DNA of 64,000 nucleotides, taken from a virus. The notes beneath the pieces were generated by a model, which had not been told where the DNA came from, made no database searches, and worked only from the letters and a program-made list of their open reading frames with translations. Location: positions 62,001 to 126,000 of IMG/VR virus record IMGVR_UViG_3300020204_003072; one strand, 5' to 3'. Of this stretch, positions 28,717 to 62,949 are shown in pieces. Made by a program: the position numbers and the translations under genes. Every line of letters begins with the position of its first letter. Positions within the stretch are counted from its first letter, which is position 1.

Positions 28717-29276
28717 ATTCCCGTACTTCCAAATCCTTTATCAGACCTATCTTTGTCTTCAACGCTTTTAACTTCTTTTATTTTAACCCACCTTCCGCTA
28801 ACAACAGGACATAAAACGCCTTGAGCAATTTTTTGACCTTTTTCTATTTTAATTTTACCATTTGTTGTGTTAAATAATATTACTTTGATTTCACCGGTAT
28901 ATCCTTGATCTACAGTTCCTGGTGAATTTAAAACCATAAGTCCCTGTTTTAAAGCAAGACCGCTTTTAGACCTAACCTGAATTTCGTAGTTTTCAGGAAT
29001 ATCCAAACGTAAACCAGTTGGAACTAAAGCTCTACCAAAAGGTTCAATATAGATTTCTTCAGTTGAATGTAAGTCAAAACCAGAATCTGAAGGGTATGCG
29101 TAATTTGGCGTAACAACTTCATCAGTTTCTTTTGAAAACCTTAAATCTATTGTTGGTTGATAAACACCAAGTTCTTTTTCAAGGGTTTCAACATCTATTC
29201 CAAATTCATTTAATATTTTATTGTAATCAATATCTGCGATTGAATCGTCAAACAAATTTTCTATATTATCACTCAT
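28713..29276 (-). CDS. dut: dUTPase
   Basis: A 187-residue trimeric dUTP diphosphatase. Motif I is YPSDSGFDLHS, motif II VRSKSGLALKQGL, motif III NSPGTVDQGYTGEIKVILFN, motif IV KGQKIAQGVLCPV and motif V DRSDKGFGSTG at the very C-terminus; all five are intact. An N-terminal extension of about 45 acidic residues is longer than in most dUTPases. It keeps uracil out of phage DNA and supplies dUMP. It overlaps both neighbours by 4 bases (ATGA type), placing this nucleotide enzyme in the glycan operon. Confidence 0.92.
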   Translation of the reverse strand: MSDNIENLFDDSIADIDYNKILNEFGIDVETLEKELGVYQPTIDLRFSKETDEVVTPNYAYPSDSGFDLHSTEEIYIEPFGRALVPTGLRLDIPENYEIQVRSKSGLALKQGLMVLNSPGTVDQGYTGEIKVILFNTTNGKIKIEKGQKIAQGVLCPVVSGRWVKIKEVKSVEDKDRSDKGFGSTGI

Positions 29277-29975: not shown

Positions 29976-31223
29976 TTATTTAATTAAAGATTTGTAAAAT
30001 TGTGCTCTTGTTTCTGTCACTCGGTTTAAATCATATTTGTCTTTAACTGTTTCATATAGTCTTTCACCAAGATCTGTAATCATATTTGGGTTTTCAACTA
30101 ACTTTTTAATATTTTTTGCCCAATCACTATGATTATTATTTTCATTTACAAGTAATGCGTTTCCATCTGTAAATTGTCCATTTTTAAGTGCATGTTTTAA
30201 ATCAATAGTATATGGACCAACATTAGAAGCAATTAAAGCTTTTTTATAAAAACCAGCTTCAATAACTTTAAGTTGAGACTTCATTCTGTTAAAAATATGG
30301 TTTTTAATTGGTGCTAAAGAAATATCAAATTTAGAATAGTTTTTTGCATAACTTGTAACTGGTCTTGTCCAAACCCTTACATAGTTCTCATCTAAAACAC
30401 CAGGATAATCATTTTCTGTAAATGTATCTAAATAATCTTTATATTTTGGTGTTATAATTTTATAGTTGTCCGTAAAAATTTGTTCGTATTTAACCCAAAC
30501 AGTTTCTTCTGGTTTTATTGATCTTTGTGTTTTTTGTCCTGTTTGTTGGTTAATTTCTGTTACAGTACCACGAATATCAAAACCACAAACGTAATATTGT
30601 AACTTGTCTTGAATCGTTGATAGTTTTGAAACCATACCATTTAAAAGTTGTAAATCGTGTAGGTGTGAAGAACCACCTAACCAACCAATTCTAATTTTAT
30701 CAGACTTTGGTGTTTGTTCATTAAATTGCGGGTCAGCTGGGTCAACAGCATTTGGTAATACAATAACATTTTTGTTGAACTTTCTAATTTCATTTGCAAA
30801 TAATTCTGTGGTTGTAATAACATAATCAGAAACTTTTAAATTTGCAATAATTTTTTCGTGTAATTTATTTTGAATTATTAATTGATGTATTGGGTGTTCT
30901 TTTGTTGGTAACCAATAATCATCAATGTCTGCAATAACAATAATACCCAATGACCTTAACATTTTAATAATGTTTGTACAATTATCGTAATCGGTACCAA
31001 TACTTCTATGGAAATGAACAATTTGATATTTTTTCCAGTAATTTATATCATTTATTTTTGGTTCGTAATCTATATCCACATGGAATTCATCTGGATACAT
31101 ATTTTGTAATTTAACGTGGGGGTCAACTGATCGGAATTTACCTCAGCCAACCCCCGACTGGTCACTTGGGAGAACCAATACTCTGATTCTTTCACGACCA
31201 TTCAAGGGGCTATTTTCTGTCAT
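29976..31223 (-). CDS. GT4-type glycosyltransferase with in-frame TGA (candidate bypass)
   Basis: The visible GT-B protein from the ATG at 31100 (374 residues) starts abruptly with MYPDEFHVDIDYEPKINDINYW and has TTTELFANEIRKF, IRIGWLGGSSHLHDL, FDISLAPIKNHIFNRMKSQLKVIEAGFYKKALIASNVGPY, typical of GT4 enzymes. The same frame extends upstream to an ATG at 31223. It reads MTENSPLNGRERIRVLVLPS, then DQSGVG, a TGA at 31145-31143, then GKFRSVDPHVKLQN and MYPDEF. RIRVLVLPSDQSGVG is the expected first strand and Gly loop of a GT-B fold, so both parts belong to one gene. The TGA sits between GGC and GGT in a hairpin. Either the ribosome bypasses or reads through it, or only the shorter protein is made, or the base is wrong. 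Confidence 0.7.
31118..31155 (-). promoter_or_regulatory. Hairpin enclosing the in-frame TGA (candidate recoding signal)
   Basis: On the minus strand GGGGGTTGGCTGA (31155-31143) and TCAGTTGACCCCC (31130-31118) form 13 consecutive pairs (three are G-T) around the 12-base loop GGTAAATTCCGA. The TGA closes the top of the 5' arm and the loop begins with GGT. Codons here (GGG, GGC, CCC, TCG, CAG, CGA) are ones this genome otherwise avoids, which points to selection on the RNA. Confidence 0.6.
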
Positions 31224-32124
31224 ATTTTTTAATTAGATTATTTATTATGGTTTTATCTGATTTATAATCTGATTCCCAAACCACTTCTAAATTATAACCC
31301 TTATTTTTTATTAAGTCAATCTTGTTTTTGTCGTATTCCCACAATTGTTCAGCGGTCATACCTTTTACTTGATGAAAATATTCTTTACTATATTTGTTTG
31401 GGTTACAATGCCAATAATCACCATTGTATTCTATTATTAAGTTTAATTGTGGTAAAAAAATATCACAAATTTTTGTATCAATTTTAAAAGAATGAATTAC
31501 TTCATATCCTAATTTTTTTATTTTATTTAAAATTTGTTTTTCTGTTTTAGATCTTATTACAGATTTAATTTTTCCCAATCTTTTGGTTTCTTTGATTGTT
31601 TCAGAAAAAATTTTTCTAACGTGTTCCATTTCGCCATTTTTCCATTTTTTTCTAATCATATCAGCTACCTTTTTCCTATGTTCTGGATTTGCCATAGAAT
31701 TATTTTTACCAGTCGCTTTACCTATTCTACTTTTAGAAATTTGTTCTTTTGTCTCTTTTGAATGTTTTTTTCCATAAAATGGATTTCTTTCCCCAACCAT
31801 AACATCACTCAAACATTTTTTACATACAGAATTTTCATTGAGCGCTTTAAAATAGTTTCTACAAGTTGTTGTTGGGTGTGTTGTTGCAACATCAGTTTCT
31901 TTTTTACAATTAGGACAAATCCTTTTTGTTATATACTTTTCACCAACCTTTTCAATTTTTAGTGATTTACACCTATCTCGTTTTTTTGTTACATTATTTT
32001 TTTTTAAAATTCCAAGAATTACTGGTTTTGACACATTAAATTCTTTTGCCAGCCCTAAAGAACTTTTACCTGACAAATATTCTTTAATTACTAAATCTTC
32101 ATCTAAATTAATTTTTTTACCCAT
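31210..32124 (-). CDS. Homing endonuclease (HTH, zinc-ribbon-like and Vsr-like nuclease)
   Basis: A 304-residue protein. Residues 1-45 are a helix-turn-helix (SGKSSLGLAKEFNVSKPVILGILKKNN). A Cys-rich segment holds ICPNCKKE and CKKC. Residues about 110-165 carry repeats of the NUMOD3 kind (NPFYGKKHSKETKEQISKS, GKNNSMANPEHRKKVADMI). The C-terminus (about 200-300) is a Vsr/EDxHD-type nuclease: EKQILNKIKKLGYEVIHSFKID, CDIFLPQLNLIIEYNGDYWHCNPNKY, then LWEYDKNKIDLIKNKGYNLEVVWESDY. This matches phage homing enzymes. It lies directly before the TGA-interrupted glycosyltransferase and overlaps its ATG by 14 bases. Confidence 0.82.
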   Translation of the reverse strand: MGKKINLDEDLVIKEYLSGKSSLGLAKEFNVSKPVILGILKKNNVTKKRDRCKSLKIEKVGEKYITKRICPNCKKETDVATTHPTTTCRNYFKALNENSVCKKCLSDVMVGERNPFYGKKHSKETKEQISKSRIGKATGKNNSMANPEHRKKVADMIRKKWKNGEMEHVRKIFSETIKETKRLGKIKSVIRSKTEKQILNKIKKLGYEVIHSFKIDTKICDIFLPQLNLIIEYNGDYWHCNPNKYSKEYFHQVKGMTAEQLWEYDKNKIDLIKNKGYNLEVVWESDYKSDKTIINNLIKKYDRK

Positions 32125-32137
32125 AACTATTTTTATT

Positions 32138-32145
32138 TATAAATA
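32138..32145 (-). promoter_or_regulatory. Putative late promoter of the homing endonuclease
   Basis: TATTTATA on the minus strand lies 13 bases before the ATG at 32124. Confidence 0.5.
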
Positions 32146-32179
32146 GTCCAGTAATATCAAAAGGTAATTTATTAAATAT

Positions 32180-32229: not shown

Positions 32230-32823
32230 TTACTTCTGTATTTTTTTAATATTTGTTACTTTACCTTCAAAAATATGATTACCAACTCTAAATTTAAAAG
32301 CTTCGTTAGACCTTGTTGTTGATTCAACAAGTAAACCATTTTCTTTCAACACATCTTCTACAGTTTCTCTAACAATATCTCTAATTTCACTATAATCTAT
32401 TTTAGTATTTATTTGTTGTGTTTTTTGTTGTGTAACTGGGTTTTGTGTTTGAGTTTGATTTGTCCCCATTAATCTTGATGCTTTTTCAACAAGTTCATCA
32501 GATAATGTTGCACTACCATTATAAGATGTTGGTTGTTCAATTGGGTGTTCCAACATAAGTCTTTTTATTTCGTCAGGTAACTTTGAATTTTTGATTCTTT
32601 CTTCTGTTGTCCCTTGTGAAACATTATTTTGGATTTTTACTTCACTTTCTAATAAAAATTCTTTTGGAATGTTGTAATTTCCTTGTACTGGTTGGAACTC
32701 GTCAACCTGTGGTGTGTTAAAATTTGTTTGTTGTGGTAAACCACCCCTACCGATTTCATTATGTTTTTCCATTATTTTTTTGGAAATCATAAGTTTGTTT
32801 ATTATATCTTGTTCTGATTTCAT
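32230..32823 (-). CDS. Hypothetical virion-cluster protein
   Basis: A 197-residue protein rich in Gln, Asn and Thr in the middle (likely disordered: NPVTQQKTQQIN), with helical segments at both ends (DYSEIRDIVRETVEDVLKENGLL near 141-163) and a final beta hairpin (FKFRVGNHIFEGKVTNIKK). I do not recognise it. The helix containing VEDVLKEN has an L-x-E site like the prohead targeting helices. It is the last gene of a five-gene leftward operon of small structural-looking proteins. Confidence 0.5.
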   Translation of the reverse strand: MKSEQDIINKLMISKKIMEKHNEIGRGGLPQQTNFNTPQVDEFQPVQGNYNIPKEFLLESEVKIQNNVSQGTTEERIKNSKLPDEIKRLMLEHPIEQPTSYNGSATLSDELVEKASRLMGTNQTQTQNPVTQQKTQQINTKIDYSEIRDIVRETVEDVLKENGLLVESTTRSNEAFKFRVGNHIFEGKVTNIKKIQK

Positions 32824-60855: not shown

Positions 60856-62949
60856 TTATTTTAGTATCCTTCTGATGTCAAACTTAAATCTTTCATTTCT
60901 TGAAAGGTTCCTAATAATGTCTTGTGGAATATTATCACCTAATTTACCAACACCATATCTTTGACCTAAACTATTGAATATATCTAAAACTTCTTTTGTT
61001 TTTTCATCACCCAATAAAAATTCTGAATATTCCTGTGTTGATATTTCTGGAAACTTAATTACACCTCTTTGCGGTGATACTTCAGAACCTATTAATTTTA
61101 ATATCTTTGTTGAAAATCTAATTTGTTGTGAATTTTTAGACTTTGGAGCTGTGGTCATACCAGGTAATTTAAGAATGTTTTTAAGAGCATTCTTATCATA
61201 ATAATATAATGATATTTCATAATTGTCTTTTGGAACACCTAATAACATACCATCAATATCACTTAATAAATAACCTATTAAATCTTCAGCAACATTAATA
61301 ATATCTTGGTTTCGACTATTAATTAAATGTGCAATAAAATTAGATTCACCTTCAATTGATTGTAAATATTTTTTATTTTCTTCACTACCGGTATATGAAT
61401 TAATATAATCAGAAAGTGATGCTTTGATTCCTTTCAAAACGGGTGATTCACTTGTGTTTCTTACAATCTTACAAGAAATTTTTAACCCATCTGGTGTTAT
61501 TAAATCATAAGGGGTGTTTAACCCAGATGAAATTTGACCACCAAGTAAACCAGAAACTAAAGCTTCAAAATCTAAACCTCTTGACCTACTTCTAATAAAT
61601 CTTTGATAATAGTTATTAAATCTAAATCTTGTTCTTTCTGAAGTTTCAGATAAATCTAAATTCATAAGACCTTCGATTGTTCTATTAAATTTTAAACCAC
61701 GTTCATCAATTTCAGTTGTTATAATATTATTTATTGCAACTTCAGCAGCTTCAGCATCCAAAGGTATTAATCTAATTTTTTGTAATTCTCTATTCATAGC
61801 TTTTTTAACATCCGGCTCAAATTCTTCACTTTCCAATAGAATTCTTAAATAAGTTTCGTTTAATTTTTTCTTAGATTTACCAACATAAAGTTCATTAACA
61901 AATTCCCAATTTATATGATTCCAGAATTTTTTAATATATTTGTCTCTTTTATTTCTATATCTTAAATAATAAGCGTGCTCCCAAACATCAAGACCTAGTA
62001 ATGGATATCCACCGTCTTTAATAATATTCATAAGTGGGTTATCTTGATTTGGTGTTGACATAATTTTTAACCTATTTGTTTTTGTTAAAACAAGCCAAAC
62101 CCAACCAGAACCAAATCTTTCTTTTGCAACATCATTAAACTCATCTTTCATCTTTTTGATATTACCATATTGTTTGGTAATTTTTTCAAAAATTTCACCT
62201 TTTGGTATTTGTTTTTTTGGTGATAACATTTTCCAAAATAATGCGTGATTAAATGCGCCACCAGCATTATTTCTAACCTTTGTATCGTACTTACTTATTG
62301 ATTTTATAATATCTTCTAAATCAACATCTTTATAGTTCTTTTTAGAAAGAGCGTCGTTTAATTTTTTAACATACCCTTTATAATGTTTGTTATAATGTAT
62401 GTCCATAGTTTCTGGATCAACAAATTGTTTTAAAGCGGAATATGAGTACGGTAATTTTTCAATACCAATTTTTTTCATTTCCAAAATAAATTCTTCTCTA
62501 ATAGTTTGTTTTTCTGTTATTAAAATACTTTCTTTTAAAAGATTTATCTTTTTATTTATACCTTCATACATCATTTCTTCTTTATCTGGAAAATTTTTTT
62601 CAAATTTTTTTAACAAAGAACCAGCTTCAGCATTTGCTTCATCTTCCAGTGGGCCACCAATGTCTTGTTTTGGTTTTTTACCCTTTATATTAATTTGCCA
62701 TTCGTGTACCCATTCGTGTGCCAAAGTTCTGAAAATATCTCTATTCATCCTTCCTTTAGTTAATATTTTTAATTCAGAATCTTGTGTTCTACTTCCAGAT
62801 GTCATAGTACCAAATCTTTCACCGGTAAAAATAATTGTAATATCTTCTTTTAATGGATATTTTTTTTGTAAAAACTTTATAAAGTCATTAGCCAAGTCCC
62901 TATCTTTTTGAGACATATCACATTTATGGTGCTTTACTTTTATTCGCAT
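60856..62949 (-). CDS. Metallopeptidase-like / superoxide dismutase / nuclease-like fusion
   Basis: A 697-residue, three-part protein. Residues about 1-130 resemble a zinc peptidase: LAHEWVHEWQ (H-E-x-x-H near 78) followed by EDEANAEAGSLL as third ligand. Residues about 165-365 are a complete Fe/Mn superoxide dismutase: MDIHYNKHY (first His), GGAFNHALFWKML (second), and GLDVWEHAYYLRYRNKRDKYIKKFWNHINW (Asp and third His), all four metal ligands kept. Residues about 375-697 look like a PD-(D/E)xK nuclease fold (RGLDFEALVSGLLGG, PYDLITPDGLKISCKIV). (L/I)-x-E sites (LLKE, ILITE, TIRE; RILLESEE) flank the dismutase, so the prohead protease may cut it free. Promoter octamer 4 bases before the ATG; MSQKDRD at 62916 is an alternative start. 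Confidence 0.8.
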   Translation of the reverse strand: MRIKVKHHKCDMSQKDRDLANDFIKFLQKKYPLKEDITIIFTGERFGTMTSGSRTQDSELKILTKGRMNRDIFRTLAHEWVHEWQINIKGKKPKQDIGGPLEDEANAEAGSLLKKFEKNFPDKEEMMYEGINKKINLLKESILITEKQTIREEFILEMKKIGIEKLPYSYSALKQFVDPETMDIHYNKHYKGYVKKLNDALSKKNYKDVDLEDIIKSISKYDTKVRNNAGGAFNHALFWKMLSPKKQIPKGEIFEKITKQYGNIKKMKDEFNDVAKERFGSGWVWLVLTKTNRLKIMSTPNQDNPLMNIIKDGGYPLLGLDVWEHAYYLRYRNKRDKYIKKFWNHINWEFVNELYVGKSKKKLNETYLRILLESEEFEPDVKKAMNRELQKIRLIPLDAEAAEVAINNIITTEIDERGLKFNRTIEGLMNLDLSETSERTRFRFNNYYQRFIRSRSRGLDFEALVSGLLGGQISSGLNTPYDLITPDGLKISCKIVRNTSESPVLKGIKASLSDYINSYTGSEENKKYLQSIEGESNFIAHLINSRNQDIINVAEDLIGYLLSDIDGMLLGVPKDNYEISLYYYDKNALKNILKLPGMTTAPKSKNSQQIRFSTKILKLIGSEVSPQRGVIKFPEISTQEYSEFLLGDEKTKEVLDIFNSLGQRYGVGKLGDNIPQDIIRNLSRNERFKFDIRRILK

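Follow-up and report, generated by a model that had tools for sequence, protein, structure and literature searches.

A probable mobile homing endonuclease cassette with inferred short translational bypassing in viral glycosyltransferase genes

In a stretch of viral DNA of 64,000 bases (positions 62,001 to 126,000 of IMG/VR record IMGVR_UViG_3300020204_003072; here called the window), a glycosyltransferase (GT) gene is interrupted by an in-frame TGA directly behind a homing endonuclease gene. The same arrangement was recovered in 114 matches, representing 49 distinct cassettes on viral contigs from many metagenomes, and is very likely a mobile homing-endonuclease/short-bypass cassette, in which ribosomes would hop over the stop to a matching codon. 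Bypassing is without experimental, protein or ribosome-profiling evidence.

Locus structure and stop-free relatives

The virus record containing the window spans 127,688 bases, and its major head protein belongs to the phrog_138 family. The genes of the locus are arranged on the minus strand in the order unknown gene (32823-32230), endonuclease gene (32124-31210) and glycosyltransferase gene (from ATG 31223). The following features were assigned.

32230..32823, minus strand: upstream gene, taken as the boundary of the empty site
31210..32124, minus strand: homing endonuclease gene, 304 aa, with an HTH-like N-terminal region, a NUMOD3 motif and a C-terminal Vsr/EDxHD-type nuclease domain
31146..31223, minus strand: glycosyltransferase ORF1 of 26 codons, MTENSPLNGRERIRVLVLPSDQSGVG, made up of an N-terminal extension specific to the cassette and the recoded beta strand 1
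31146..31148, minus strand: take-off codon GGC (Gly)
31143..31145, minus strand: TGA, the in-frame stop adjoining the take-off codon
31140..31142, minus strand: landing codon GGT (Gly); translation is inferred to resume at AAA 31139-31137
29976..31142, minus strand: ORF2, which encodes the body of a GT-B (GT4-like) glycosyltransferase and has 387 codons past the landing codon

The ATG at 31223 sits within the last 14 bases of the endonuclease gene and opens 26 codons ending in TCG GGG GTT GGC, which are followed by TGA and GGT AAA TTC CGA. The frame reads ...RIRVLVLPSDQSGVG-GGC-TGA-GGT-KFRSVDPH... and continues into the GT-B glycosyltransferase; past the TGA it is open to the stop at 29978-29976. 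A second match to GGGGTNGGNTRA in the virus record, at position 28859, lies outside any cassette. The upstream gene was taken to mark the edge of the empty site because cassette-free relatives share the same end point.

A reading of the window made before any comparison (the sequence-only reading) had described the single TGA (31145-31143) between GGC and GGT in the frame from ATG 31223, and the 14-base overlap of the endonuclease gene (31210-32124) with the start; both held. Its statement of a high G+C content (49% of 111 bases) held in kind, with 47% for 31110-31223, a value equalled by just 0.4% of the 114-base stretches of the window. Likewise, the codons named as rare were confirmed as such by counts of 89 (GGG), 39 (GGC), 70 (TCG) and 16 (CCC) in 16,273 codons. 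TGA had been considered not to be reassigned, which also held: because 11 of 45 window genes end in TGA, it is a normal stop here. No tRNA genes were found in the window.

Relatives of the 374-residue glycosyltransferase body (80 in total) were collected from IMG/VR. The majority begin MKEKINVLVLPSD.SGVGKFRSVDPH and are stop-free, and in 12 the extension (NPLNGRERIRVLVLPSD.SGVG) is present, with a stop and then another Gly codon behind it. Cassette-free relatives, including two that are 92-94% identical to the window gene, contain an uninterrupted GVGKFRS. A comparison with close homologues had been suggested as a check, and these read GVG-KFRS without the two extra codons. Homologues starting at MYPDEF without the upstream strand would have counted against the sequence-only reading; the stop-free homologues do have the upstream strand. 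The proposed hop of a Gly-tRNA from GGC to GGT, giving SGVGKFRS, is supported by these homologues, and remains inferred since protein evidence is lacking.

In the AlphaFold2 model of the stop-free L002 protein (pLDDT 78), beta strand 1 comprises residues 4-9 and GVG residues 15-17. The stop position maps to the first Rossmann domain, in the loop behind its beta strand 1; a product initiated farther downstream would therefore miss a core strand. Top PDB matches of the model include GT4 glycosyltransferases, e.g. MshA and BshA. When annotated phages were searched with the GT body, only relatives below 60% identity appeared, and no annotated isolated carriers were found.

Two further sequence elements were noted upstream. 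On the minus strand at window positions 32130-32150, before the endonuclease gene, TATAAATA resembles a T4 late promoter, and a hairpin followed by T's is present at the end of the gene upstream of the endonuclease.

Variation among the cassettes

Cassettes beyond those among the 80 relatives were added by pattern scans and by an endonuclease-based scan. Most cassette contigs are metagenomic. The 49 cassettes are interrelated, and counts and p-values obtained without a tree are optimistic. The gap was defined as the distance between the 3' ends of the take-off and landing codons. Gaps of 5 nt (3 cassettes), 6 nt (32), 7 nt (3), 8 nt (2), 9 nt (1), 11 nt (5), 12 nt (2) and 13 nt (1) were observed. 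Thus defined, the gap is out of frame (not divisible by 3) in 14 of the 49 cassettes, and gaps of 11 and 12 nt occur in close sister genes. The stop is TGA in 26 cassettes, TAA in 22 and TAG in one. The variation is illustrated by the following cassettes, written from take-off to landing codon.

L093: GGT TAACTAAA GGT
L135: GGT TAACCAACA GGT
L144: AGC TGACTA AGC
L178: AGC TGACA AGC
L189: AGC TG AGC
L190: GGT TA GGT, where the G of TAG doubles as the first base of the landing codon
L159: GGC TGAATTTAAA GGA

All 41 Gly take-off codons are followed by Gly landing codons, and seven of eight Ser AGY take-off codons by Ser AGY (Fisher p 9e-8, uncorrected for kinship). Third-base differences occur in Gly pairs (GGT to GGA in six, GGC to GGA in one), and L166 is the lone mismatch (Ser AGT to Gly GGC); strict codon identity is therefore not needed. 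Deletion of the stop, the spacer and one codon copy restored the uninterrupted protein in every cassette. The anatomy, its recurrence, the codon matching and the out-of-frame gaps are thus shown directly by the sequences.

ORF1 is 26-29 codons long across the cassettes, and its N-terminal extension is missing from stop-free relatives. The dN/dS ratio of the GT body was 0.14 in genes with the stop and 0.125 in genes without it; for the last 16 codons before the stop, values of 0.16 (stop-bearing) and 0.18 (stop-free) were obtained. Both gene halves are under purifying selection, which is as strong as in intact genes.

Hairpins in the mRNA

Two hairpins were predicted in the window. All hairpin structures rest on single-sequence folding.

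31148..31212, minus strand: 5' hairpin of about 25 pairs within the ORF1 mRNA, with a folding energy of -28.1 kcal/mol and a base extending into the take-off codon
31118..31155, minus strand: 3' stem, with the take-off codon and the stop inside the stem and the landing codon in the loop

Against synonymous recoding, the 5' hairpin of the window had a z-score of -4.9. A strong hairpin ending at the take-off codon was present in all 48 cassettes with a readable upstream ORF. The segment from the start to the take-off codon folded with a mean of -28.7 kcal/mol (z -5.3) in 33 stop-bearing genes and of -5.8 kcal/mol (z +0.3) in 49 stop-free genes, z-scores being relative to random synonymous recoding; the two groups do not overlap. 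The 3' arm of the hairpin, GGGGTTGG, lies directly before the take-off codon or runs into it, and the 5' arm is formed by the AACCCC of the extension. Positions -6 to -9 are paired in 48 of 48 cassettes, with three pair types (CG, GC and TA) at position -7 and six at position -10. In two class-wise alignments, the pairing fraction and the covariation score exceeded those of all 500 shuffles and of all slid registers. The cassettes' own arms outperformed swapped arms in 20000 of 20000 permutations. Covariation of the hairpin is thereby shown. Since the 5' arm lies in the extension and its pairing covaries, the ORF1 extension likely exists in order to carry this arm.

No structure was obtained by RNAalifold from a plain MAFFT alignment of all classes, nor did a joint realignment of the trimmed arms of all classes yield a usable one, because subclasses differ by 1-2 nt in the offset of the two arms. 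Instead, each class was aligned separately and each sequence was folded individually.

The sequence-only reading had put the weight on the 3' stem as a perfect stem of 13 pairs (31155-31143 with 31130-31118). The coordinates are right and all 13 positions do pair, but three of the pairs are G-U, which makes 'perfect' a little too strong. The 3' segment of the window folds at -24.4 kcal/mol, and the stem is strong throughout the TGA/6-nt class (-14.6 to -25.7 kcal/mol) except in L130. It is weak or absent in most TAA, 11-nt and 12-nt cassettes, and its CCCCC arm also occurs in 8 of 50 stop-free genes. The 3' stem is limited to one subclass and is not the universal element; the hairpin on the 5' side of the take-off codon, which is stronger, much better conserved, universal and covarying, had been missed. 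By analogy with the T4 take-off stem-loop, the 3' stem may possibly help in the TGA/6-nt class.

The hairpin reaches to within one base of the stop in 8 of 8 cassettes with gaps of 11-13 nt and in 7 of 40 with shorter gaps (uncorrected for kinship). This correlation between gap length and hairpin base, which involves few clades, agrees with the inferred role of the hairpin as a motor and might be a lead on a stroke-length rule.

Endonuclease linkage and mobility

The endonuclease matched NUMOD3 (E 1.6e-7), the homing endonuclease family phrog_3339 and, weakly, TIGR00632 vsr. Its AlphaFold model had the catalytic domain of I-Bth0305I (3r3p) as best PDB match (prob 1.00, TM by target 0.73, E 3.5e-3), followed by Vsr; a Vsr-like nuclease fold of the I-Bth0305I type is predicted from this model. 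Searching bacterial genomes with the endonuclease gave weak matches only, and no host was indicated.

The gene tree was based on the GT body without its first 60 residues. On this tree, 19 changes of state were inferred for the stop, at least 11 of them on well-supported branches. In 9 of 11 independent pairs the endonuclease changed in the same way as the stop, and in none in the opposite way (p 0.004). Cassette and endonuclease were gained or lost together at least 11 times; cutting and self-spread are inferred from this only indirectly. Almost all stop-free GT genes lack this endonuclease, which also answers whether homologues without the TGA lack it, a check suggested beforehand. Empty sites were found in the close pairs with and without cassette L072/L073, L011/L016 and window/L002, and consist of the upstream gene and its downstream region without endonuclease. 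In these pairs the segment from start to landing codon is written in different codons, and close identity resumes just past the landing codon. Endonuclease linkage and empty sites are shown by these comparisons.

An intact cassette is accompanied by a decayed endonuclease in L011, L032, L140 and L125 and by no detectable endonuclease in L093, L101, L126, L122 and L127, the GT body staying open in all of them; the gene thus keeps depending on the cassette. Conversely, an endonuclease of the family precedes stop-free GT genes in L005, L066, L184 and L191-L210, so the endonuclease does not always need the stop.

Several observations concern the range of these loci. In L184, L186, L191-L210 and L212, the first 14-17 bases of a stop-free GT gene lie within the gene of a shorter endonuclease (about 250-280 aa), and neither the hairpin extension nor the stop is present; this arrangement is a possible precursor state of the cassette. 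The motif GVGKFRSVDPH, otherwise nearly invariant, is altered in some stop-free genes (L028, L030, L062, L064, L066) to forms such as GVSKFRTVDPH, GCGKFRSVEPH and GVSKFRSVGPH, which could conceivably mark endonuclease-resistant alleles; L066, a member of this group, has the endonuclease without the stop. In L004, the same endonuclease/stop cassette and GT gene lie behind a different set of upstream genes, and the GT gene itself therefore moves between contexts. A scan for similar cassettes at endonuclease relatives that neighbour other genes gave candidates with weak hairpins or arbitrary codons, which were for this reason regarded as chance.

Proposed mechanism and alternative explanations

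The mobile unit would consist of the endonuclease gene and about the first 100 bases of the glycosyltransferase gene. Presumably, the endonuclease cuts cassette-free glycosyltransferase genes, and repair copies the unit in. The copied DNA would differ in codon choice between the start codon and roughly the landing codon and would bring in the stop and a short spacer, destroying the cut site. Both endonuclease cutting and protection by the insert are inferred. Programmed ribosomal bypassing would preserve the function of the gene. When the Gly or Ser take-off codon occupies the P site and the stop the A site, the peptidyl-tRNA would let go, the ribosome would move forward by 5-13 nt (6 nt in the window), and the same tRNA would re-pair with the matching codon. 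Translation would then resume to give a product identical to the cassette-free ...SGVGKFRS... The upper hairpin may refold behind the ribosome, and closing of the hairpin base would pull the mRNA 5'-ward and the ribosome 3'-ward, upon which the peptidyl-tRNA would come off and pair again with the next matching codon. Such a motor would be a minimal form of the role proposed for the T4 5' stem-loop (PMC5009743). The cassettes fit the criteria for bypassing in that the joined ORFs equal the uninterrupted homologue, the codons match and any frame is possible; the joined product, bypassing itself, its efficiency and the hairpin as motor are inferred.

Readthrough, in which a near-cognate tRNA decodes TGA or TAA and two residues are added (GVG-X-G-KFRS), would be compatible with the 6-nt in-frame gap of the window and of 32 of 49 cassettes, and TGA is a leaky stop in bacteria. 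It is nevertheless very unlikely: the gap breaks the frame in 14 distinct cassettes, TAA occurs almost as often as TGA, no matching codon would be needed after the stop, and the extra residues would land in the conserved first Rossmann loop. For the window itself, readthrough is excluded only by analogy, because its gap is in frame. Very unlikely, too, is a split gene, i.e. a short ORF1 peptide with reinitiation further downstream (e.g. at MYPDEF) or a gene dying after endonuclease invasion. The window does have an ATG 13 codons past the landing codon. However, 12 cassettes contain no ATG, GTG or TTG within 40 codons after landing, and a reinitiated product would be without beta strand 1. Against a split or dying gene, purifying selection on both sides equals that of intact relatives, ORF2 is open in every case, and the hairpin is kept by compensatory changes. 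A pseudogene was likewise rejected.

A +1, +2 or -1 frameshift near the stop could in principle fit the gaps of 5 and 7 nt, but the gaps span all three frames without a shared slippery sequence, and residues encoded by the spacer would be kept; removal of the spacer from the mRNA is contradicted by spacers as short as TG or TA, too short for an intron. These other forms of recoding or processing are also held to be very unlikely. A sequencing or assembly error at 31143-31145 could be invoked because the exact phage is represented by one record only. It is all but excluded, since the same anatomy is seen in over 100 matches (49 distinct, many metagenomes) and no single error makes a cassette-specific extension with a hairpin; the same structure in dozens of contigs counters the view of the TGA as a lone error. 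Codon reassignment was rejected because TGA is a normal stop here and TAA and TAG also occur. A group I or II intron or an intein was likewise rejected, without an Rfam search, as the whole N-terminus lies downstream of the endonuclease with no exon upstream; neither the endonuclease nor the ORF2 protein gave an intein match.

Comparison with known systems

Efficient programmed bypassing in phage has so far been essentially one studied case, the 50-nt translational bypass of T4 gene 60 beside the homing endonuclease gene mobA (PMC3014915, PMC5009743, PMC11194080); Bonocora et al. 2011 (cited in PMC8300805) reportedly also bears on this pair. T4 gene 60 and the cassette share a take-off Gly codon followed by a stop, a matching Gly landing codon and a hairpin 5' of the take-off codon (5'SL). 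In the TGA subclass, the take-off codon and stop also lie within a second stem, as in T4. In both systems, a homing endonuclease gene lies directly upstream and is absent in cassette-free relatives, and protection against the endonuclease has been proposed. The gap is 5-13 nt in the cassettes and 50 nt in T4, ORF1 has 26-29 codons compared with 46, and the interrupted gene encodes a glycosyltransferase here and a topoisomerase in T4. A KKYK-type nascent-peptide motif as in T4 gene 60 was not found in any ORF1, the extensions being of the NGRER/PVGRK type. Unlike T4, the cassettes use Ser as well as Gly for take-off and all of TGA, TAA and TAG, and there are dozens of independent carriers in place of one. 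The T4-like bypass of the sequence-only reading held in part: with 6 nt in the window and 5-13 nt in the family, the hop is short and is better termed a stop-hop than a 50-nt slide. Its comparison with a mobA-like mobile cassette held for function and failed for homology of the parts, because the endonuclease is of the Vsr/I-Bth0305I type and MobA is an HNH enzyme (PMC3014915).

Synthetic stop-hops, in which matching codons flank a stop and 9 nt yield one amino acid, have been described, and in 2016 no natural in-frame stop-hop was known (PMC5009743). The GGC TGA GGT of the window, read as one Gly, has exactly this configuration; unlike the synthetic constructs, the cassette is natural, recurrent and provided with a conserved hairpin. 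The byp elements of Magnusiomyces capitatus mitochondria are also short inserts bypassed by ribosomes (PMC5009743), as is inferred for the cassette. They differ in occupying many sites of a mitochondrial genome, in their independence of mRNA context and in relaxed codon matching, and no linked endonuclease is mentioned in the relevant passage (PMC5009743). In the open-access literature searched (subscription papers and preprints were outside the scope), no report of this cassette family was found.

If the interpretation is true, T4 gene 60, which has long been regarded as unique, is a member of a widespread class. That short natural examples with matching codons should exist had been anticipated for decades. 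The 49 natural variants in gap, frame, stop, tRNA and hairpin are a ready-made mutational series for take-off and landing, and the family makes it testable whether bypass sequences serve homing endonucleases as mobile immunity cassettes. Translation-level repair would then join introns, inteins and split inteins as a non-lethal route of gene invasion. A bolder reading, held to be more likely than not, is that of an extensive natural family of mobile stop-hop cassettes. In these, a short leader-codon hairpin directly 5' of the take-off codon would suffice for a bypass of 5-13 nt in any frame with a Gly or Ser tRNA, and the cassettes would be the endonuclease family's substitute for the split inteins used in other genes.

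Fractured genes are reported to combine split inteins with the I-Bth0305I-type endonuclease family (Dassa 2009, Taylor 2011, cited in PMC10448857). They share with the cassette the endonuclease class and a means by which the invaded gene can still give rise to its protein, which is protein splicing there and translation, by the inferred bypass, here. In L350, L357, L367, L371 and L388, endonuclease relatives lie directly before ORFs beginning with intein C-terminal halves, which belong to TerL and DNA polymerase (DnaE in L388), the arrangement of a fractured gene. As far as can be inferred from sequence alone, one endonuclease family seems to use two protein-saving devices, the bypass cassette and split inteins.
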